Shown here: one piece after another, positions 210 to 7,690 of the stretch
Layout: each line of letters opens with the position of its first letter
Numbering within the stretch: position 1 is the stretch's first letter
Source of the DNA: Winogradskyella sp.
Lineage (GTDB): Bacteria; Bacteroidota; Bacteroidia; Flavobacteriales; Flavobacteriaceae
DNA length: 64,000 nucleotides
Direction of reading: 5' to 3'
Assembly (NCBI GenBank): GCA_004211785.1
Contig: SHBX01000001.1
Coordinates: 248,001 to 312,000, forward strand
Translations under genes and position numbers: made by a program
The notes under the pieces: generated by a model
What the model was told of the DNA's origin: nothing
Databases searched by the model: none
Seen by the model: the letters and a program-made list of their open reading frames with translations, nothing else

Positions 210-3059
210 ATGTTGAGTGTAAAAGATTATATAGCCTTAATATTCTTATATTTTTCGTGTTCTGTATTACATGCACAACTTAACGCAACAACGATAGGAG
301 ATGCGCAAAGTCTAGGTAATAATTGTTTTATTATTACTCAAGACATATTAAGTCAGGTTGGTGGTGTTTGGTATGATAATGCCATAGATTTTGATCAAGA
401 CTTCACTATAAATTATCAAAATAATTTTGGAAGTAAAGATGGAAATGGTGCAGACGGCATGGCCTTAGTTTTTAAAGATAATTCAACGCCTCAGTTAGGA
501 AACGCTGGTGGTGGTATGGGATACCAAAATATAGGTTCACTCACAGATCCAATATCAGAGGCATCATTAACGATAGAGTTTGATACTTATTTAAATAACA
601 CACCTCAAGAAGGGCTTTTAGCTGATCCGTTTTTTGATCATATTGCAATAATGCGTAATGGTAATCCAAATCATAATAGTACTGATAATTTAGCAGGTCC
701 AGTACAAGCTAGTAATACATCTCAAAATATTGAAGATGGGAATACGCATGAAATAAAAATTGATTGGAATGCTTCTACTCAAATACTAAGTGTATTTTTT
801 GATTGCGAATTAAGGTTGTCTCTAAACTTAGACGTAAAAAACACTATTTTTTCTGGTGATGATACTGTCTTTTTTGGCTTTGTAGGATCAACAGGAGGTT
901 TATCTAATTTACATCAAGTCTGTTTTAATAGTATTTCATTTATAGATAATTTACAATTACAAGATGAAACTATATGTGAGAATGATGACATTCAAGTAGA
1001 CGCTACTATTCCAAGTGGTGTTACATATGTCTGGACACCAACTAATGGTGTTAGTGACCCCAATATTGCTAATCCATCATTTTTTCCAAATACTACCACG
1101 ACATACACTGTTACTATAAGTGATATTTGTGGAGACACGACTGTAGACGATTTTATGTTAACGGTCTTACCAGTCGAGACACCTACTTTTAATACTGTTC
1201 CTCCAATTTGTGTAGGAGGTTCTTTGACGTCATTACCAACAACTTCTCTTGAGGGTATAACAGGAACTTGGTCACCGACTTTAACCAATACACAAACTAC
1301 GACCTATACATTTACGCCAGATGGAGGTTGCGCCAATTCTACGACTTTAGACATTGTTGTTATTCCTCTTGCGTTACCCACATTTAATTCTGTAGCTCCC
1401 ATTTGTCAGGGAGAAACACTTGCTCCATTACCAACGACTTCTAATAACGGAATTACAGGAACATGGTCTCCAGCTCTAAATAATACGAGTACAACCATAT
1501 ACACATTTATGCCAGACACTGGACAAGGTTGCGTGGACACAGCCACGCTACAAATTGATGTTATAGCTCCAATTACTCCCAGTTTTGATAATGTGACATC
1601 TATTTGTGAAGGTGAAACTTTAGCGCCATTACCAACGACGTCTAATAATGGAATTACAGGAACGTGGTCTCCAGCTTTAAATAATACCACTACAACAACC
1701 TATACTTTTACCCCAAGTATTGGAGAATGTGCGATATCTACAACACTTGATGTTATAGTCAATCCTCCAGTGTTACCTGTGTTTGATGCTATTGATTCTA
1801 TTTGCGAAGGAGAAGCTCTTGCTCCATTACCAACGACTTCTAATAATGGGATATCAGGAACATGGTCTCCAGCTTTAAATAATACCACTACAACCACGTA
1901 TACTTTTACGCCAAATGCTGGAGAATGTGCTATCACAACTACACTAGATATTGTAGTGGACATACCTGTTACTCCGATTTTTAATTCATTAGGTTCTTTC
2001 TGCGAGGGAGATACACTTCCACCATTACCCACGACGTCTAATAATGGCATATCGGGAACATGGTCTCCTGCTCTAAATAATATGGTGACTACCACATATA
2101 CATTTATGCCAAATGTTGATGAGTGCGCCAACACTACAGATTTAACAATTACTATTATTCCTAACATAGTGGCAGATTTTGATGCTGTTGGTGCTATTTG
2201 CCCAGGTGAATTTTTACAAGAATTACCATTAGTTTCTAACAATGGGATTACTGGTGTTTGGTTACCAGCATTAGATAACCAAAATACCACAGAATATACC
2301 TTTACACCAGATACAGGTCAAGGTTGCGTAGTTGGAAACACTTTGACAATTCAAGTGCTTCAACCTGTAATTCCATCTTTTAGTTTACCAGATTTTATTT
2401 GTCAAGGTGATACCACATTTGTATTACCTGTAATTTCTAATGAAGGTATCACAGGCATTTGGTCAGAGCCCGTTAATAATCAAATAACAACAACCTATAT
2501 TTTTACGCCAGACCCAAATCAATGTGCTTCAATTGTAGACGAGGAAATACAAGTTTTATCAGTAAATACATTAGCACTTTCTATTGAATTGATTTCAGAA
2601 CCATTTAGCGATAATCAAATTGTAGTTGCTACGGCAACCGGAGGTGATGGTATGTACGAGTATCAATTAGATAATGGTGTTTGGACAAGTCAAAATACAT
2701 TTTCAAATATAACAGGTTGTGATGAACATGTCATTAATGTACGTCAGCTTAATGGTTGTAGTATAGCGGGTGTAGAAACATTTCGTGTTTTGGATTATCC
2801 TAAATTTTTCACACCTAACGGAGATGGTTTTAATGATTTATGGAACATTAAGTGTTTAAATAATCAAGCGATAGCTCGAATATATATATTTGATAGACTT
2901 GGAAAATTATTAAAGACTTTCAGTCCTAGTGGCTCAGGTTGGAATGGAACTTATAATGGCGCATTAATGCCAACAAGTGATTATTGGTTTAGAGTAGATT
3001 ATTTGGGAAATGATAATACTTCAAGGACATTTACGTCGCACTTTACCTTGAAACGATAA
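210..3059 (+). CDS. Secreted L-type lectin-domain adhesin with tandem Ig/PKD-like repeats and T9SS type B (gliding-motility-associated) C-terminal sorting domain
   Basis: N-terminal signal and legume-lectin-like domain (DGMALVFKD, IEFDTYLN, HEIKIDWN); repeats PLPTTSNNGITGTWSPALNNTTTTTYTFTP; C-term FFTPNGDGFNDLWNI...RIYIFDRLGKLL. Confidence 0.88.
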   Translation: MLSVKDYIALIFLYFSCSVLHAQLNATTIGDAQSLGNNCFIITQDILSQVGGVWYDNAIDFDQDFTINYQNNFGSKDGNGADGMALVFKDNSTPQLGNAGGGMGYQNIGSLTDPISEASLTIEFDTYLNNTPQEGLLADPFFDHIAIMRNGNPNHNSTDNLAGPVQASNTSQNIEDGNTHEIKIDWNASTQILSVFFDCELRLSLNLDVKNTIFSGDDTVFFGFVGSTGGLSNLHQVCFNSISFIDNLQLQDETICENDDIQVDATIPSGVTYVWTPTNGVSDPNIANPSFFPNTTTTYTVTISDICGDTTVDDFMLTVLPVETPTFNTVPPICVGGSLTSLPTTSLEGITGTWSPTLTNTQTTTYTFTPDGGCANSTTLDIVVIPLALPTFNSVAPICQGETLAPLPTTSNNGITGTWSPALNNTSTTIYTFMPDTGQGCVDTATLQIDVIAPITPSFDNVTSICEGETLAPLPTTSNNGITGTWSPALNNTTTTTYTFTPSIGECAISTTLDVIVNPPVLPVFDAIDSICEGEALAPLPTTSNNGISGTWSPALNNTTTTTYTFTPNAGECAITTTLDIVVDIPVTPIFNSLGSFCEGDTLPPLPTTSNNGISGTWSPALNNMVTTTYTFMPNVDECANTTDLTITIIPNIVADFDAVGAICPGEFLQELPLVSNNGITGVWLPALDNQNTTEYTFTPDTGQGCVVGNTLTIQVLQPVIPSFSLPDFICQGDTTFVLPVISNEGITGIWSEPVNNQITTTYIFTPDPNQCASIVDEEIQVLSVNTLALSIELISEPFSDNQIVVATATGGDGMYEYQLDNGVWTSQNTFSNITGCDEHVINVRQLNGCSIAGVETFRVLDYPKFFTPNGDGFNDLWNIKCLNNQAIARIYIFDRLGKLLKTFSPSGSGWNGTYNGALMPTSDYWFRVDYLGNDNTSRTFTSHFTLKR
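1170..2565 (+). repeat. About seven in-frame tandem repeats of ~198 bp within the lectin adhesin gene
   Basis: CCATTACCAACGACKTCTAATAAYGGRATWNCAGGAACRTGGTCTCCAGC motif recurs at about 1424, 1625, 1823 and 2021 (198-201 bp spacing), with more diverged copies on either side. Confidence 0.9.
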
Positions 3060-3102: not shown

Positions 3103-4359
3103 ATGTATGCTTTAGTCGATTGTAATAATTTCTATACCTCTTGCGAGCGTGTTTTTAATCCTAATTTAGAAGGAAAACCTGTCGCTATTCTTAGTAATAA
3201 TGATGGTTGTGTTATCTCTATGAGTGACGAAGCTAAAGTATTACAATTGCCTTTTGGCGCACCTATTTTTAAGTGGGAAGGGTTTTGTAAGTTGAATAAT
3301 ATTACAGTATTATCATCTAACTATCCATTATATGGCGATATGAGCAGTCGAGTAATGAAAATACTTGAACAATTTACTCCAGATGTTGAGGTGTACAGTA
3401 TTGATGAGGCTTTTCTTCAGTTTGAAGGCTTTGATAATTATAATTTTGATGATTATGGTCTTGAAATTAGGCAACGTATATTAAAATGGACGGGAATTCC
3501 AACATGTGTAGGGATTGCACCAACAAAGGCATTAAGTAAAGTTGCCAATAAAATTGCGCGTAAGTTTCCAGAAGAAACTAAAGGAAGCTATGTTATAAAT
3601 TCTGATGAAAGCCGAATAAAAGCTCTAAAATGGATAAAGCTTGAAAGTGTTTGGGGTATTGGCCGTGGTCTGCAAAAGCGGTTGAAAGCTAAAGGCTGTA
3701 AAACAGCATACGATTTTATACAGCTAAATGATGAGTGGGTTAGAAAAACATTCTCTATAACAGAATGGAAACTTAAAAAAGACTTAGAAGGTGTTTCAAA
3801 AATAGAACTAGATGAACCAACTCGCAAGCGCGCAATTGCAACGACACGAAGCTTTGATTATACGTATGATGATATCAATTATATAAAGGAGCGTGTTTCA
3901 ACCTTTGCAACAAGTTGTGCTGAAAAATTGCGTAAGCAAGGTTCTAGTTGTCATATGGTTATTGTAAGCTTGAGTAGCAATAGACATAAAAAAGAGCTTG
4001 AGCAGCATCGCGCAAGTACCATAGTAAGTTTTCCTTATCCTACAGACTCTTCGCTGTTAATTAGTAGAGAAGCTGTAAAAGCGGTACAATCTATTTTTAA
4101 AAAAGGAATTAAATATAAAAGAGCTGGTGTTATTGTCACTGGTTTGGTACCAACAGATAATTATCAGTTAGATATGTTTAGTGAAGAAGACCCTAAGCAT
4201 AAACCTTTAATGTCTGCTATTGATACGATAAATAAAAAGTATAAAGGCGATAAAATTAAAATCGGTAACCAAGACTTAGAGCGTACATGGAAAATGCGTC
4301 AAGAGCGTTTGTCACCTAGATATACCACAAATATTAACGATATTATTATTGTAAAGTAA
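3103..4359 (+). CDS. umuC: Y-family DNA polymerase, UmuC-like
   Basis: MYALVDCNNFYTSCERVFNP...YSIDEAFLQF; C-terminal LSPRYTTNINDIIIV (DUF4113-like). Confidence 0.93.
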   Translation: MYALVDCNNFYTSCERVFNPNLEGKPVAILSNNDGCVISMSDEAKVLQLPFGAPIFKWEGFCKLNNITVLSSNYPLYGDMSSRVMKILEQFTPDVEVYSIDEAFLQFEGFDNYNFDDYGLEIRQRILKWTGIPTCVGIAPTKALSKVANKIARKFPEETKGSYVINSDESRIKALKWIKLESVWGIGRGLQKRLKAKGCKTAYDFIQLNDEWVRKTFSITEWKLKKDLEGVSKIELDEPTRKRAIATTRSFDYTYDDINYIKERVSTFATSCAEKLRKQGSSCHMVIVSLSSNRHKKELEQHRASTIVSFPYPTDSSLLISREAVKAVQSIFKKGIKYKRAGVIVTGLVPTDNYQLDMFSEEDPKHKPLMSAIDTINKKYKGDKIKIGNQDLERTWKMRQERLSPRYTTNINDIIIVK

Positions 4360-4366
4360 ACCCATT

Positions 4367-4807
4367 ATGATAGCACATAAATCAAAAAACCTGACAATTT
4401 TTATTCCAGAACCTACTGAAGATTCTGGAACTCATTTCTTTGATACAGGAATATCAGCAGGCTTTCCATCTCCAGCAGAAGACTTTAAAGAACAACGACT
4501 GTCTTTAGATGAGGAATTGGTAAAGAATAAAGAAGCAACTTTTTATGCGCGAGTGAGTGGACAATCTATGATTGGCGCAGGATTAGACGACAACGATTTA
4601 TTGGTTATTGATAGAAGCCTAGAACCGGAAAATAATAAAATAGCAGTGTGCTTTCTCGATGGAGAGTTTACCGTAAAACGCTTAAGGGTATCTAGTGATG
4701 AGGTTTGGCTTCAACCTGAAAATCCAGATTATCCGATTATAAAAATAACAGAAGAAAACAACTTCGTTATTTGGGGTATTGTAACTAATGTGATTAAAAA
4801 GGTATAA
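4367..4807 (+). CDS. umuD: UmuD-like S24 autoprotease (Pol V subunit)
   Basis: AGFPSPAEDF cleavage site, catalytic Ser in VSGQSMIGAG and Lys in FTVKRL. Confidence 0.92.
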   Translation: MIAHKSKNLTIFIPEPTEDSGTHFFDTGISAGFPSPAEDFKEQRLSLDEELVKNKEATFYARVSGQSMIGAGLDDNDLLVIDRSLEPENNKIAVCFLDGEFTVKRLRVSSDEVWLQPENPDYPIIKITEENNFVIWGIVTNVIKKV

Positions 4808-4812
4808 CCTGT

Positions 4813-5862
4813 ATGACATTTGATAACCCTTTATTATTTTTCATTTGCTCTATTGGGGTCTTTAATGGATTTATAGCGAGTTTTTATTTCCTGTTTTTTA
4901 GCAAACAAAAACGTATTCAGAACTTATTTTTTGGGCTCTTATTATTAATGCTGAGTTTAAGAATAGGAAAATCTGTTTATATCATTTTTACAGAAATGGC
5001 TAATCGAGATTTATTGATTTCTCAAATTGGCCTATCTGCTTGTTTTTTAATAGGAATTTCATTGATTTTTTATTTAAAGTCTTCAGTAGAAAATAGAAAA
5101 ACTATTCCGAAATCTTGGAAAATACATTATATAATTCTTGCTGTAGCTATCATTTTAACGGGAATTTTAAAACCATATAGAACCAATGTAGATTTCTGGC
5201 ACAAGTATTTAATTTACTTTATATATACAGTTTGGGGAATTCACTTAATTTTTTCTGGTTTCGTTTTAAGAGATATTTTCAAGAAACTTGTTAGTAAAAA
5301 AATAAAGTGTACGACTTCAGAGGTTTGGTTAATTGCCGTTTTTGTAGCGAATATATTAATATATTCGGCCTATATTATTGGTTATTTCTACTTGTATTTG
5401 GTTGGGACTATTACATTTTCTGTAGTGTTTTATGCATTGTTAATTTTTCTGCTATTCAAGAAAAATAGAGAAAGTGTTTTTCAAGATATTCCAGAGAAAT
5501 ACGCTGCAAAAAAGATTAATGTAAATGAAGCAGAGAAGCTTATTAATGAACTGTCCTCTTTAATGCAAACTAAAGCGATGTTTAAAAATTCAGATGTAAA
5601 ACTGAAAAACGTAGCAGATGAATTAAATGTTTCTAAGCACCATTTATCTCAATTATTAAATGATAATCTAGGAAAATCCTTTACGCAATATATTAATGAA
5701 CTTAGAACAGAAGAAGCAAAACGCTTACTAGTTGAAAACAACCAATTCATTCTAGAAGCAATAGGTTTTGAAGCTGGTTTTTCATCAAAATCCACATTCT
5801 ATGCTACTTTTAAAAAGGTTGTTGGACAAACACCTGCTGAGTATAAAAAGCAGTTTTCCTAG
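4813..5862 (+). CDS. Membrane-anchored AraC-family transcriptional regulator
   Basis: Multiple N-terminal TM segments, C-terminal AraC HTH (LKNVADELNVSKHHLSQLLND...FEAGFSSKSTFYATFKKVVGQTPAEYKK). Confidence 0.9.
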   Translation: MTFDNPLLFFICSIGVFNGFIASFYFLFFSKQKRIQNLFFGLLLLMLSLRIGKSVYIIFTEMANRDLLISQIGLSACFLIGISLIFYLKSSVENRKTIPKSWKIHYIILAVAIILTGILKPYRTNVDFWHKYLIYFIYTVWGIHLIFSGFVLRDIFKKLVSKKIKCTTSEVWLIAVFVANILIYSAYIIGYFYLYLVGTITFSVVFYALLIFLLFKKNRESVFQDIPEKYAAKKINVNEAEKLINELSSLMQTKAMFKNSDVKLKNVADELNVSKHHLSQLLNDNLGKSFTQYINELRTEEAKRLLVENNQFILEAIGFEAGFSSKSTFYATFKKVVGQTPAEYKKQFS

Positions 5863-5878
5863 TCATTTTTATCCCATT

Positions 5879-5905
5879 TTATAATTCTGGACAATTCCAT
5901 TATAA
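5879..5905. promoter_or_regulatory. Bulged palindrome TTATAAttcTGGAcaatTCCATTATAA upstream of the DJ-1 fusion
   Basis: Arms read directly; lies between the AraC regulator and the fusion gene, no T-tract. Confidence 0.4.
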
Positions 5906-5965
5906 CCTAACACTTTAAATTTCATTTGTTTTTTAAAGTTTGTATAGAATTTTAAAAATATACAA

Positions 5966-7603
5966 ATGAAAAAGGCATTCCTTTTATTTATTATAGTCTT
6001 AATGTCTAATTCTCTTTTAGCGCAATCTAAAGATAATCCTGAACCAAATACGACTGTTATTACATTAATTATCCTAAACGATAATGGAGAGGTTTTAATA
6101 AAAAGGGCAACAATAGGTTGGATTACTATAGGTGCGTTTTATGAGCAAAGACAAACGCTTAATGAAGTAATCGCTAGTCTTTCAAATAAATATGGCGTAT
6201 CTATTTCAAAACCTGAACTCAAAGGTGTTTTTACTTATAAATTTGGGTTTAATAATTCTTTAAGTGTAAGGCAACTATATGTTGCTAAATCTACGACTAC
6301 TGAGTTGCCAAAAAACAAAAAAGTTGAATTTCACTGGGTTCCAAAAGATGAGGCTATAGAAAAGTTTAAGAGTACGGTTCCTTCTTTCGGCGAAATGATT
6401 GAGCAAATTTTAGATTATCCTCAAGTAGTTTGGGGTGGATCTTTTTTAATTAATAGAGAAAACGAGAAAAAAACTTCTGAGCAAACAGAAGATTTTTACC
6501 CAATAAGTGACCCATCTGCTTATAGAATAGCATCATCTTATTCAACATCATCATCTAATGCTTTAATAGAGAAAACACTTCAAAATTATATGGAAGGCAG
6601 TTCTTATAACAAGTTAGAAATACTAGAAAGTGCTTTTACAGATAATGCCACCTTATACCTCACTAATAAAGATGGCTTATTTAAACTATATACACCAAAA
6701 GAATATACAGGCTTTTTTAAAAATGCAGATAAGGGTAAGTTCAATGGGCGCTATGCCAAAATTTTAGAAATTCAACAGATAAAAGACATTGCAACTGCTA
6801 AGGTTGAAATTGCAGGTCCTGAAAGAAAATGGGTTTATATTGATTTATTCTTATTAAAAAAGTTAGAGGATGGTTGGAAAATAATCAGCAAAACAGCAAC
6901 TAGAGTCGATGACTCAAAACGGAATTCTGTTTTATTTATTCTTTCTAATGCTCATTTTTACGGAGACACAAAAATAAGCACGGGAAATAGTTTTTCAGAA
7001 ATTGTAAATGCTTATGATGTTTTTAAAAATGCTGGTTATATTGTTGATTTTGTGAGTCCTAAAGGTGGAGCTGTTCCGCTAGCATATATTAATACTTCCG
7101 ACGATATGAGTAAAAAGTATTTGTATGACACTAATTTTATGAATGCACTAAAGAACACGAAATCGCCTTCTGAAATTGATGCTTCTAAATATAAAGCAGT
7201 TCAATACATAGGTGGTGGTGGTGCTATGTTTGGAGTTCCAGAAAATAAAGAAATTCAAAAAATAGCAATGGACGTTTACGAGAAGCATAATGGTATTATT
7301 TCTTCTGTTTGTCATGGCACAGCAGGTATTGTTAATTTAAAAACCAAAGATGGAAAATATTTGGTTGATGGTAAAAGGGTAAGTGGTTATCCAGATGATT
7401 ACGAAAATAAATCAGCACCGTATTTTAAAACATTTCCTTTTTTAATCAAAAAAACAATTGAAGAACGAGGGGGAAGTTTTAGATTTTCAGAAAGAGGGAG
7501 GTTTACTTTAGAAGTTGATGGGCGTTTAGTTACAGGGCAGAATTTTCAATCTTCAAAACCAGTCTCTTTGAAAATTATTGAATTAATAGAATCAAATAAT
7601 TAA
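5966..7603 (+). CDS. Secreted fusion: degenerate Nudix-like domain + NTF2/lumazine-binding-like domain + DJ-1/PfpI domain
   Basis: Signal peptide MKKAFLLFIIVLMSNSLLAQ; Nudix-like fold without canonical GX5EX7REUXEEXGU; LIEKTLQNYMEGSSYNKLEILESAFTDNATLY...; DJ-1 nucleophile region ISSVCHGTAGIVNL. Confidence 0.78.
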   Translation: MKKAFLLFIIVLMSNSLLAQSKDNPEPNTTVITLIILNDNGEVLIKRATIGWITIGAFYEQRQTLNEVIASLSNKYGVSISKPELKGVFTYKFGFNNSLSVRQLYVAKSTTTELPKNKKVEFHWVPKDEAIEKFKSTVPSFGEMIEQILDYPQVVWGGSFLINRENEKKTSEQTEDFYPISDPSAYRIASSYSTSSSNALIEKTLQNYMEGSSYNKLEILESAFTDNATLYLTNKDGLFKLYTPKEYTGFFKNADKGKFNGRYAKILEIQQIKDIATAKVEIAGPERKWVYIDLFLLKKLEDGWKIISKTATRVDDSKRNSVLFILSNAHFYGDTKISTGNSFSEIVNAYDVFKNAGYIVDFVSPKGGAVPLAYINTSDDMSKKYLYDTNFMNALKNTKSPSEIDASKYKAVQYIGGGGAMFGVPENKEIQKIAMDVYEKHNGIISSVCHGTAGIVNLKTKDGKYLVDGKRVSGYPDDYENKSAPYFKTFPFLIKKTIEERGGSFRFSERGRFTLEVDGRLVTGQNFQSSKPVSLKIIELIESNN

Positions 7604-7633: not shown

Positions 7634-7668
7634 AAAAAACGCGAAGCATTATTTGCTTCGCGTTTTTT
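7634..7668. terminator. Bidirectional intrinsic terminator between convergent genes
   Basis: AAAAAACGCGAAGCattatttGCTTCGCGTTTTTT. Confidence 0.88.
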
Positions 7669-7690
7669 AATGTATATAATTAGATTAATG

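Follow-up and report, generated by a model that had tools for sequence, protein, structure and literature searches.

The question raised by this locus of Winogradskyella sp., a marine flavobacterium, is what an exported protein does with domains of the DJ-1/Hsp31 and Nudix classes, both of which are usually regarded as cytoplasmic and both of which a conserved family exports here. The window analyzed is a stretch of 64,000 nucleotides, and coordinates are positions within it unless another locus is named; the regulator gene, the fusion gene and the elements between them are on the forward strand. The fusion gene (5966–7603) is a single unbroken frame of 545 amino acids by ORF analysis, with no comparable frame on the opposite strand of this interval, and is present as a single copy in its genome. 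Starting at the N terminus the protein comprises a Nudix fold, an NTF2-like domain and an Hsp31/DJ-1 domain. The same order is found in other genomes of Winogradskyella and in Aquimarina, Dokdonia and Tenacibaculum. The original prediction of one three-domain frame is thus upheld, and the occurrence of the fusion in independent genomes excludes an origin in a frameshift or in assembly. The first two domains are connected by a fast-evolving linker (residues 181–196; 6506–6553) that is modelled with low confidence (pLDDT <50 for residues 182–196) and has a dN/dS of about 1 or above in window comparisons. The domain arrangement in the full-length model (pTM 0.48) is not reliable. A limited search of the literature found no account of a Nudix–NTF2–Hsp31 fusion, of DUF5916 or of the 7TM-AraC regulator group described below; what is new beside earlier anatomy is the genomic context, i.e. 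the upstream regulator, the candidate operator and the changing architecture at the locus.

Read directly, the N terminus of the fusion is a signal peptide of the signal peptidase I type, MKKAFLLFIIVLMSNSLLA followed by Q (5966–6025), without a lipobox. Its hydrophobic segment comprises residues 1–19 and ends LLA/Q, and a helix is predicted for residues 2–19. Hydropathy reveals no further membrane segment, in keeping with the export that had been predicted. A signal peptide or lipobox is present in 102 of 109 ORFs of the family as judged by a simple rule rather than a trained predictor, and most of the ORFs without one are truncated or wrongly started frames. A lipobox is common in the free-standing DJ-1 relatives of sister operons, giving an independent sign of extracytoplasmic location, with the qualification that some entries that this rule lists as lipoproteins, L092 and L008 among them, resemble ordinary signal peptides in which a cysteine happens to occur.

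The N-terminal domain (residues 29–180; 6050–6505) adopts the alpha/beta/alpha Nudix fold as judged from structure prediction and weak profile similarity. Pfam finds nothing significant in residues 1–190 of the fusion, where the curated NUDIX cut-off is not reached, and two of 14 family members give weak NUDIX matches (best E = 0.011). A profile of 14 sequences of the domain matches MutT 3fk9 with E = 2e-5. The AlphaFold2 model has a mean pLDDT of 84.5, and its best match in Foldseek is the same MutT structure (E = 1e-8), with many MTH1 structures also matched; these matches bear out the Nudix-like N terminus originally proposed. FecR_C or another fold, raised by weak Pfam matches, is ruled out by the structure search. 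The domain thus resembles the MutT/MTH1-type Nudix hydrolases in predicted fold and profile, but the family differs from them in lacking the REUXEE metal site, in being exported and in falling below the Pfam cut-off. Alignment to 3fk9 places a degenerate Nudix box, GAFYEQRQTLNEVIASLSNKYGV, at residues 56–78 (6131–6199), where the positions of the catalytic glutamates are occupied by S, N and K. The signature GX5EX7REUXEEXGU with its metal-binding glutamates is absent from these residues, just as the original prediction had quoted, and none of 19 relatives, fused or free-standing, contains REUXEE.

Recent decay of the Nudix domain is ruled out, since the box is absent in all relatives and dN/dS is low. 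Pairwise values are 0.12–0.29 (ten comparisons), compared with about 0.06–0.13 for the DJ-1 domain, and indicate that the inactive domain is maintained by purifying selection. The loss of catalytic residues together with this conservation suggests a role as a non-catalytic binding module, and a Nudix part selected without its active site makes it possible to ask concretely what such pseudo-Nudix domains bind. The domain is rare: a sample taken across the phylum has it in four of its 396 genomes, one of which (G505) gives a weak match only, to a protein that is MutY-type by Pfam. At one locus (L008, 4001–6185) a further exported pseudo-Nudix gene, this one free-standing, begins within 2 bases of the end of a three-domain fusion. 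Free-standing exported pseudo-Nudix genes are also found in two genomes beside genes for acyl-CoA:6-APA acyltransferase-like (AAT) proteins (L124, 2742–4325; L123, 2179–3643).

The middle domain (residues 197–313; 6554–6904) is NTF2-like, as had been suggested. Pfam Lumazine_bd_2 (PF12893) matches residues 198–310 with E = 2e-13 and 51.4 bits against a curated cut-off of 22.1, and the fold match in Foldseek is 3blz. In score and fold it agrees with the Lumazine_bd_2/NTF2-like proteins; the difference lies in its setting, in that here it is usually encoded behind a 7TM-AraC gene and is often fused to DJ-1, pseudo-Nudix or both.

The C-terminal domain (residues 319–545; 6920–7600) is recognized as DJ-1_PfpI (PF01965) at residues 344–539 (33.9 bits, cut-off 26.6). 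Its nearest solved proteins, by both sequence and fold, are Francisella REP24 (4p5p), 1u9c, yeast Hsp31 and Candida albicans glyoxalase III (4lru), and the fold match to these class II proteins spans the whole domain. On alignment to 4lru and yeast Hsp33 the Glu–Cys–His center and the class II glutamate are all present. Glu345 (6998–7000) is equivalent to catalytic Glu30 of yeast Hsp31 and is glutamate in 77 of 78 relatives. The nucleophile and histidine, Cys449 and His450 (7310–7315), are each kept in 77 of the 78; Cys449 lies in the SSVCHGTAG motif that was read from the start as an apparently intact nucleophile, and is the only cysteine of the fusion protein. Glu480 (7403–7405), which aligns in 4lru and corresponds to Glu170 of yeast Hsp31, is the third member of a Cys–His–Glu triad and is conserved in 76 of the 78 relatives, the remaining two being gapped. 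In yeast Hsp31 residues Glu30, Cys138 and His139 are assigned to glyoxalase III activity, and Glu170, a position where class II proteins have glutamate, completes a peptidase-like triad whose function is called unknown (PMC4021431). As these residues align with the yeast center, the domain is better classed as Hsp31 class II-like than as DJ-1 proper. It shares with YDR533c, 4lru, 4p5p and 1u9c the fold, 25–33% identity, the Glu/Cys/His center and the class II glutamate, and differs in being exported, in carrying two extra domains and in its link to a membrane AraC protein, its activity being predicted. The HchA equivalog (NCBIfam NF003168) is not reached, at 46 bits against a cut-off of 365. 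Since the Hsp31 class II subfamily has members with demonstrated glyoxalase III activity (PMC4021431), carbonyl detoxification by the exported fusion is plausible. The DJ-1/Hsp31 superfamily also includes chaperones, proteins with a proposed peptidase-type triad and proteins without known function, a point against the glyoxalase III-type reading. A second DJ-1_PfpI protein is encoded elsewhere in the same genome.

Directly upstream of the fusion gene lies the gene for a 349-amino-acid regulator (4813–5862). This has the C-terminal AraC-type DNA-binding domain of its family (HTH_18, PF12833; E = 1e-21), but where a soluble ligand-binding domain would be expected its N-terminal part has, by hydropathy, seven hydrophobic segments. 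The pairing of the two genes is repeated in many relatives. Taking the 17 closest regulator homologues outside the genome itself (score >200 bits in a family-wide sample), 16 have an NTF2 and/or DJ-1 gene behind them on the same strand and no more than 825 bp downstream, the sole exception being G103:C2. The pairing extends to Saprospiraceae and to the gammaproteobacterium Thalassotalea (L015 and L014). Among weaker homologues the gene order is mixed or reversed. Two paralogues of the regulator in its own genome (L119 and L120; G000:C52 and C16) precede a TPR–S41 peptidase and a beta-lactamase-fold protein. Upstream, UmuC-like (IMS) and Peptidase_S24/UmuD-like genes (3103–4807) stop 5 bp short of the AraC gene; their order and short spacing are repeated in several relatives (e.g. 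L018, L020 and L133), so that the regulator gene might share a transcript with these SOS genes.

The intergenic region contains a candidate AraC operator, TCC-N5-TTATAATTCTGGACAATTCCATTATAA (5872–5905), with two copies of TTATAA 21 bp apart. In an alignment of 14 loci this block has a mean identity of 0.87 with 17 of 34 columns invariant, against 0.67 in the next 30 columns, and in divergent loci the TTATAA repeats are retained with differing flanks. A tandem site (at least 10 of 12 matches) occurs with the 21 bp period in 28 of 41 distinct stretches downstream of homologues with ≥36% identity, compared with a mean of 4.3 and a maximum of 11 in shuffled sequences, statistics that are inflated by the shared ancestry of the loci; at other periods from 15 to 30 it is found in 2–12 of the 41. 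For remote AraC homologues the count is four of 20, and the L119 and L120 loci are without the site. The tandem site is probably an operator, and its position and repeat spacing suggest that it is bound by the AraC protein. There is one tandem site in the whole genome at up to three mismatches, so control of further genes by the AraC protein is unsupported. Regulator, candidate operator and changeable exported product offer a compact and testable one-gene regulon. An invariant TTTG (5939–5942; 14 loci) about 23 bp before the start codon is possibly part of a Bacteroidota promoter. At the far end of the gene a hairpin flanked by A/T tracts (7640–7669), read from the sequence and not returned by the scan, lies between the fusion gene and atpC and is probably a bidirectional terminator.

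The original prediction held for the three domains, the catalytic loss in Nudix, the DJ-1 nucleophile and export; its description of the fusion as a 'sensor-enzyme' is not supported in that form. With a 7TM-AraC gene directly upstream and a conserved candidate operator between, the AraC protein is a more likely sensor than the exported fusion, and the Nudix domain is an optional accessory. Among relatives the architectures include Nudix–NTF2–DJ-1, Nudix–DJ-1, Nudix–NTF2, NTF2–DJ-1, NTF2 alone, and separate adjacent genes in several orders; at the corresponding locus there is NTF2 alone, Nudix–NTF2, NTF2–DJ-1 or all three. Mapped onto a tree of the NTF2 domain the distribution of architectures takes 10 changes in total, so that domain gain or loss has been a repeated event; the three-domain form takes three changes, two of them forced by well-supported branches. 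Wherever the upstream AraC homologue has at least 60% identity, the neighboring gene has an NTF2-like domain, with DJ-1 and Nudix optional. The DJ-1 domain is absent from the orthologous locus in several relatives, so the core job of the unit cannot rest solely on that enzyme. Comparing relatives that have gained or lost domains at this one locus offers a natural way to tell apart the contributions of the modules. The fusions of Aquimarina, Dokdonia and Croceitalea adjoin a different AraC gene or none, and at L032 (1480–2604) an NTF2–DJ-1 homologue is broken by an in-frame TGA.

The folds, residues, export signal, gene pairing and intergenic site are established by sequence and computation, and on them we tentatively base the proposal, which we put at somewhat short of an even chance, that the locus is a small self-contained regulatory unit in which the AraC regulator activates an exported glyoxalase III-type enzyme carrying an NTF2 scaffold and a dead Nudix module; the DNA binding, the direction of regulation, the enzyme activity, its substrate and the signal are parts that we infer. 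The membrane-anchored regulator would sense a signal from the membrane or periplasm, bind the tandem site with 21 bp spacing behind its own gene and activate the adjacent fusion gene. Outside the cytoplasm, small reactive compounds would then be converted at the Glu345/Cys449/His450 center by chemistry of the glyoxalase III type or by a closely related reaction that depends on the cysteine. A scaffold for dimerization or ligand binding may be provided by the NTF2-like domain, which is constant at the locus, and the dead Nudix domain may be an optional binding module. A more specific version, in which 7TM-AraC, single-copy operator and exported Hsp31-type enzyme constitute a unit dedicated to the extracytoplasmic response to electrophiles, with the dead Nudix domain as a sensor that binds nucleotides or electrophile adducts and with sensor and enzyme modules exchanged among relatives at one locus, seems to us improbable.

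Three other readings have to be weighed against the proposed glyoxalase III-type unit. The complete peptidase-type triad Cys449–His450–Glu480 might make the DJ-1 domain a cysteine peptidase or amidase, or a holdase chaperone for damaged exported proteins whose substrates are bound by the other domains; relatives of Hsp31 are known as chaperones (PMC4981205), but the peptidase function of the triad is unproven even in model proteins (PMC4021431), and we regard this as distinctly unlikely. It is also unlikely that the exported fusion acts as a co-sensor, in which a ligand bound by the NTF2-like and pseudo-Nudix parts is signalled to the regulator's 7TM part and the DJ-1 cysteine senses redox state or electrophiles. 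Such a role would fit the close coupling of the regulator to its exported partner, a Nudix part that is non-catalytic, an NTF2 part without known activity and a single cysteine placed in the DJ-1 center, but next to regulators that differ little from one another the exported protein takes widely different architectures, which would be unusual for an obligate sensor partner.

The third reading draws on the operon partners, whose variety keeps it a serious, if doubtful, rival: the unit may respond to an exogenous compound such as an antibiotic or other xenobiotic rather than to carbonyl stress, the AraC protein switching on variable exported hydrolases, and the NTF2-like and Hsp31 domains binding and hydrolyzing or modifying the compound. 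In the more distant, sister operons the AraC/NTF2/DJ-1 genes adjoin exported serine hydrolases of the beta-lactamase fold or an amidohydrolase, DJ-1 is once fused to that fold, and the regulator stays constant as the partners change. The beta-lactamase fold family is, however, broad and most of its members are not known to degrade antibiotics, and the window locus has no hydrolase partner. In close relatives the gene next after that of the exported protein encodes a CBM9/DUF5916 protein of ~720 amino acids. This is absent at the window locus, where the hairpin and atpC follow instead, and elsewhere in the genome there are partial matches of 31–35% only. The DJ-1 fusion (L137, 2217–4355) is a protein of 712 amino acids that combines a DJ-1 domain, a beta-lactamase-fold domain and a TPR segment, directly behind an AraC homologue. 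Further upstream in the window (210–3059) is the gene for a large, repetitive exported protein, which contains several near-identical units of PTTSNNGI.GTWSPALNN and has a C-terminal end that by eye is of the gliding-motility type.
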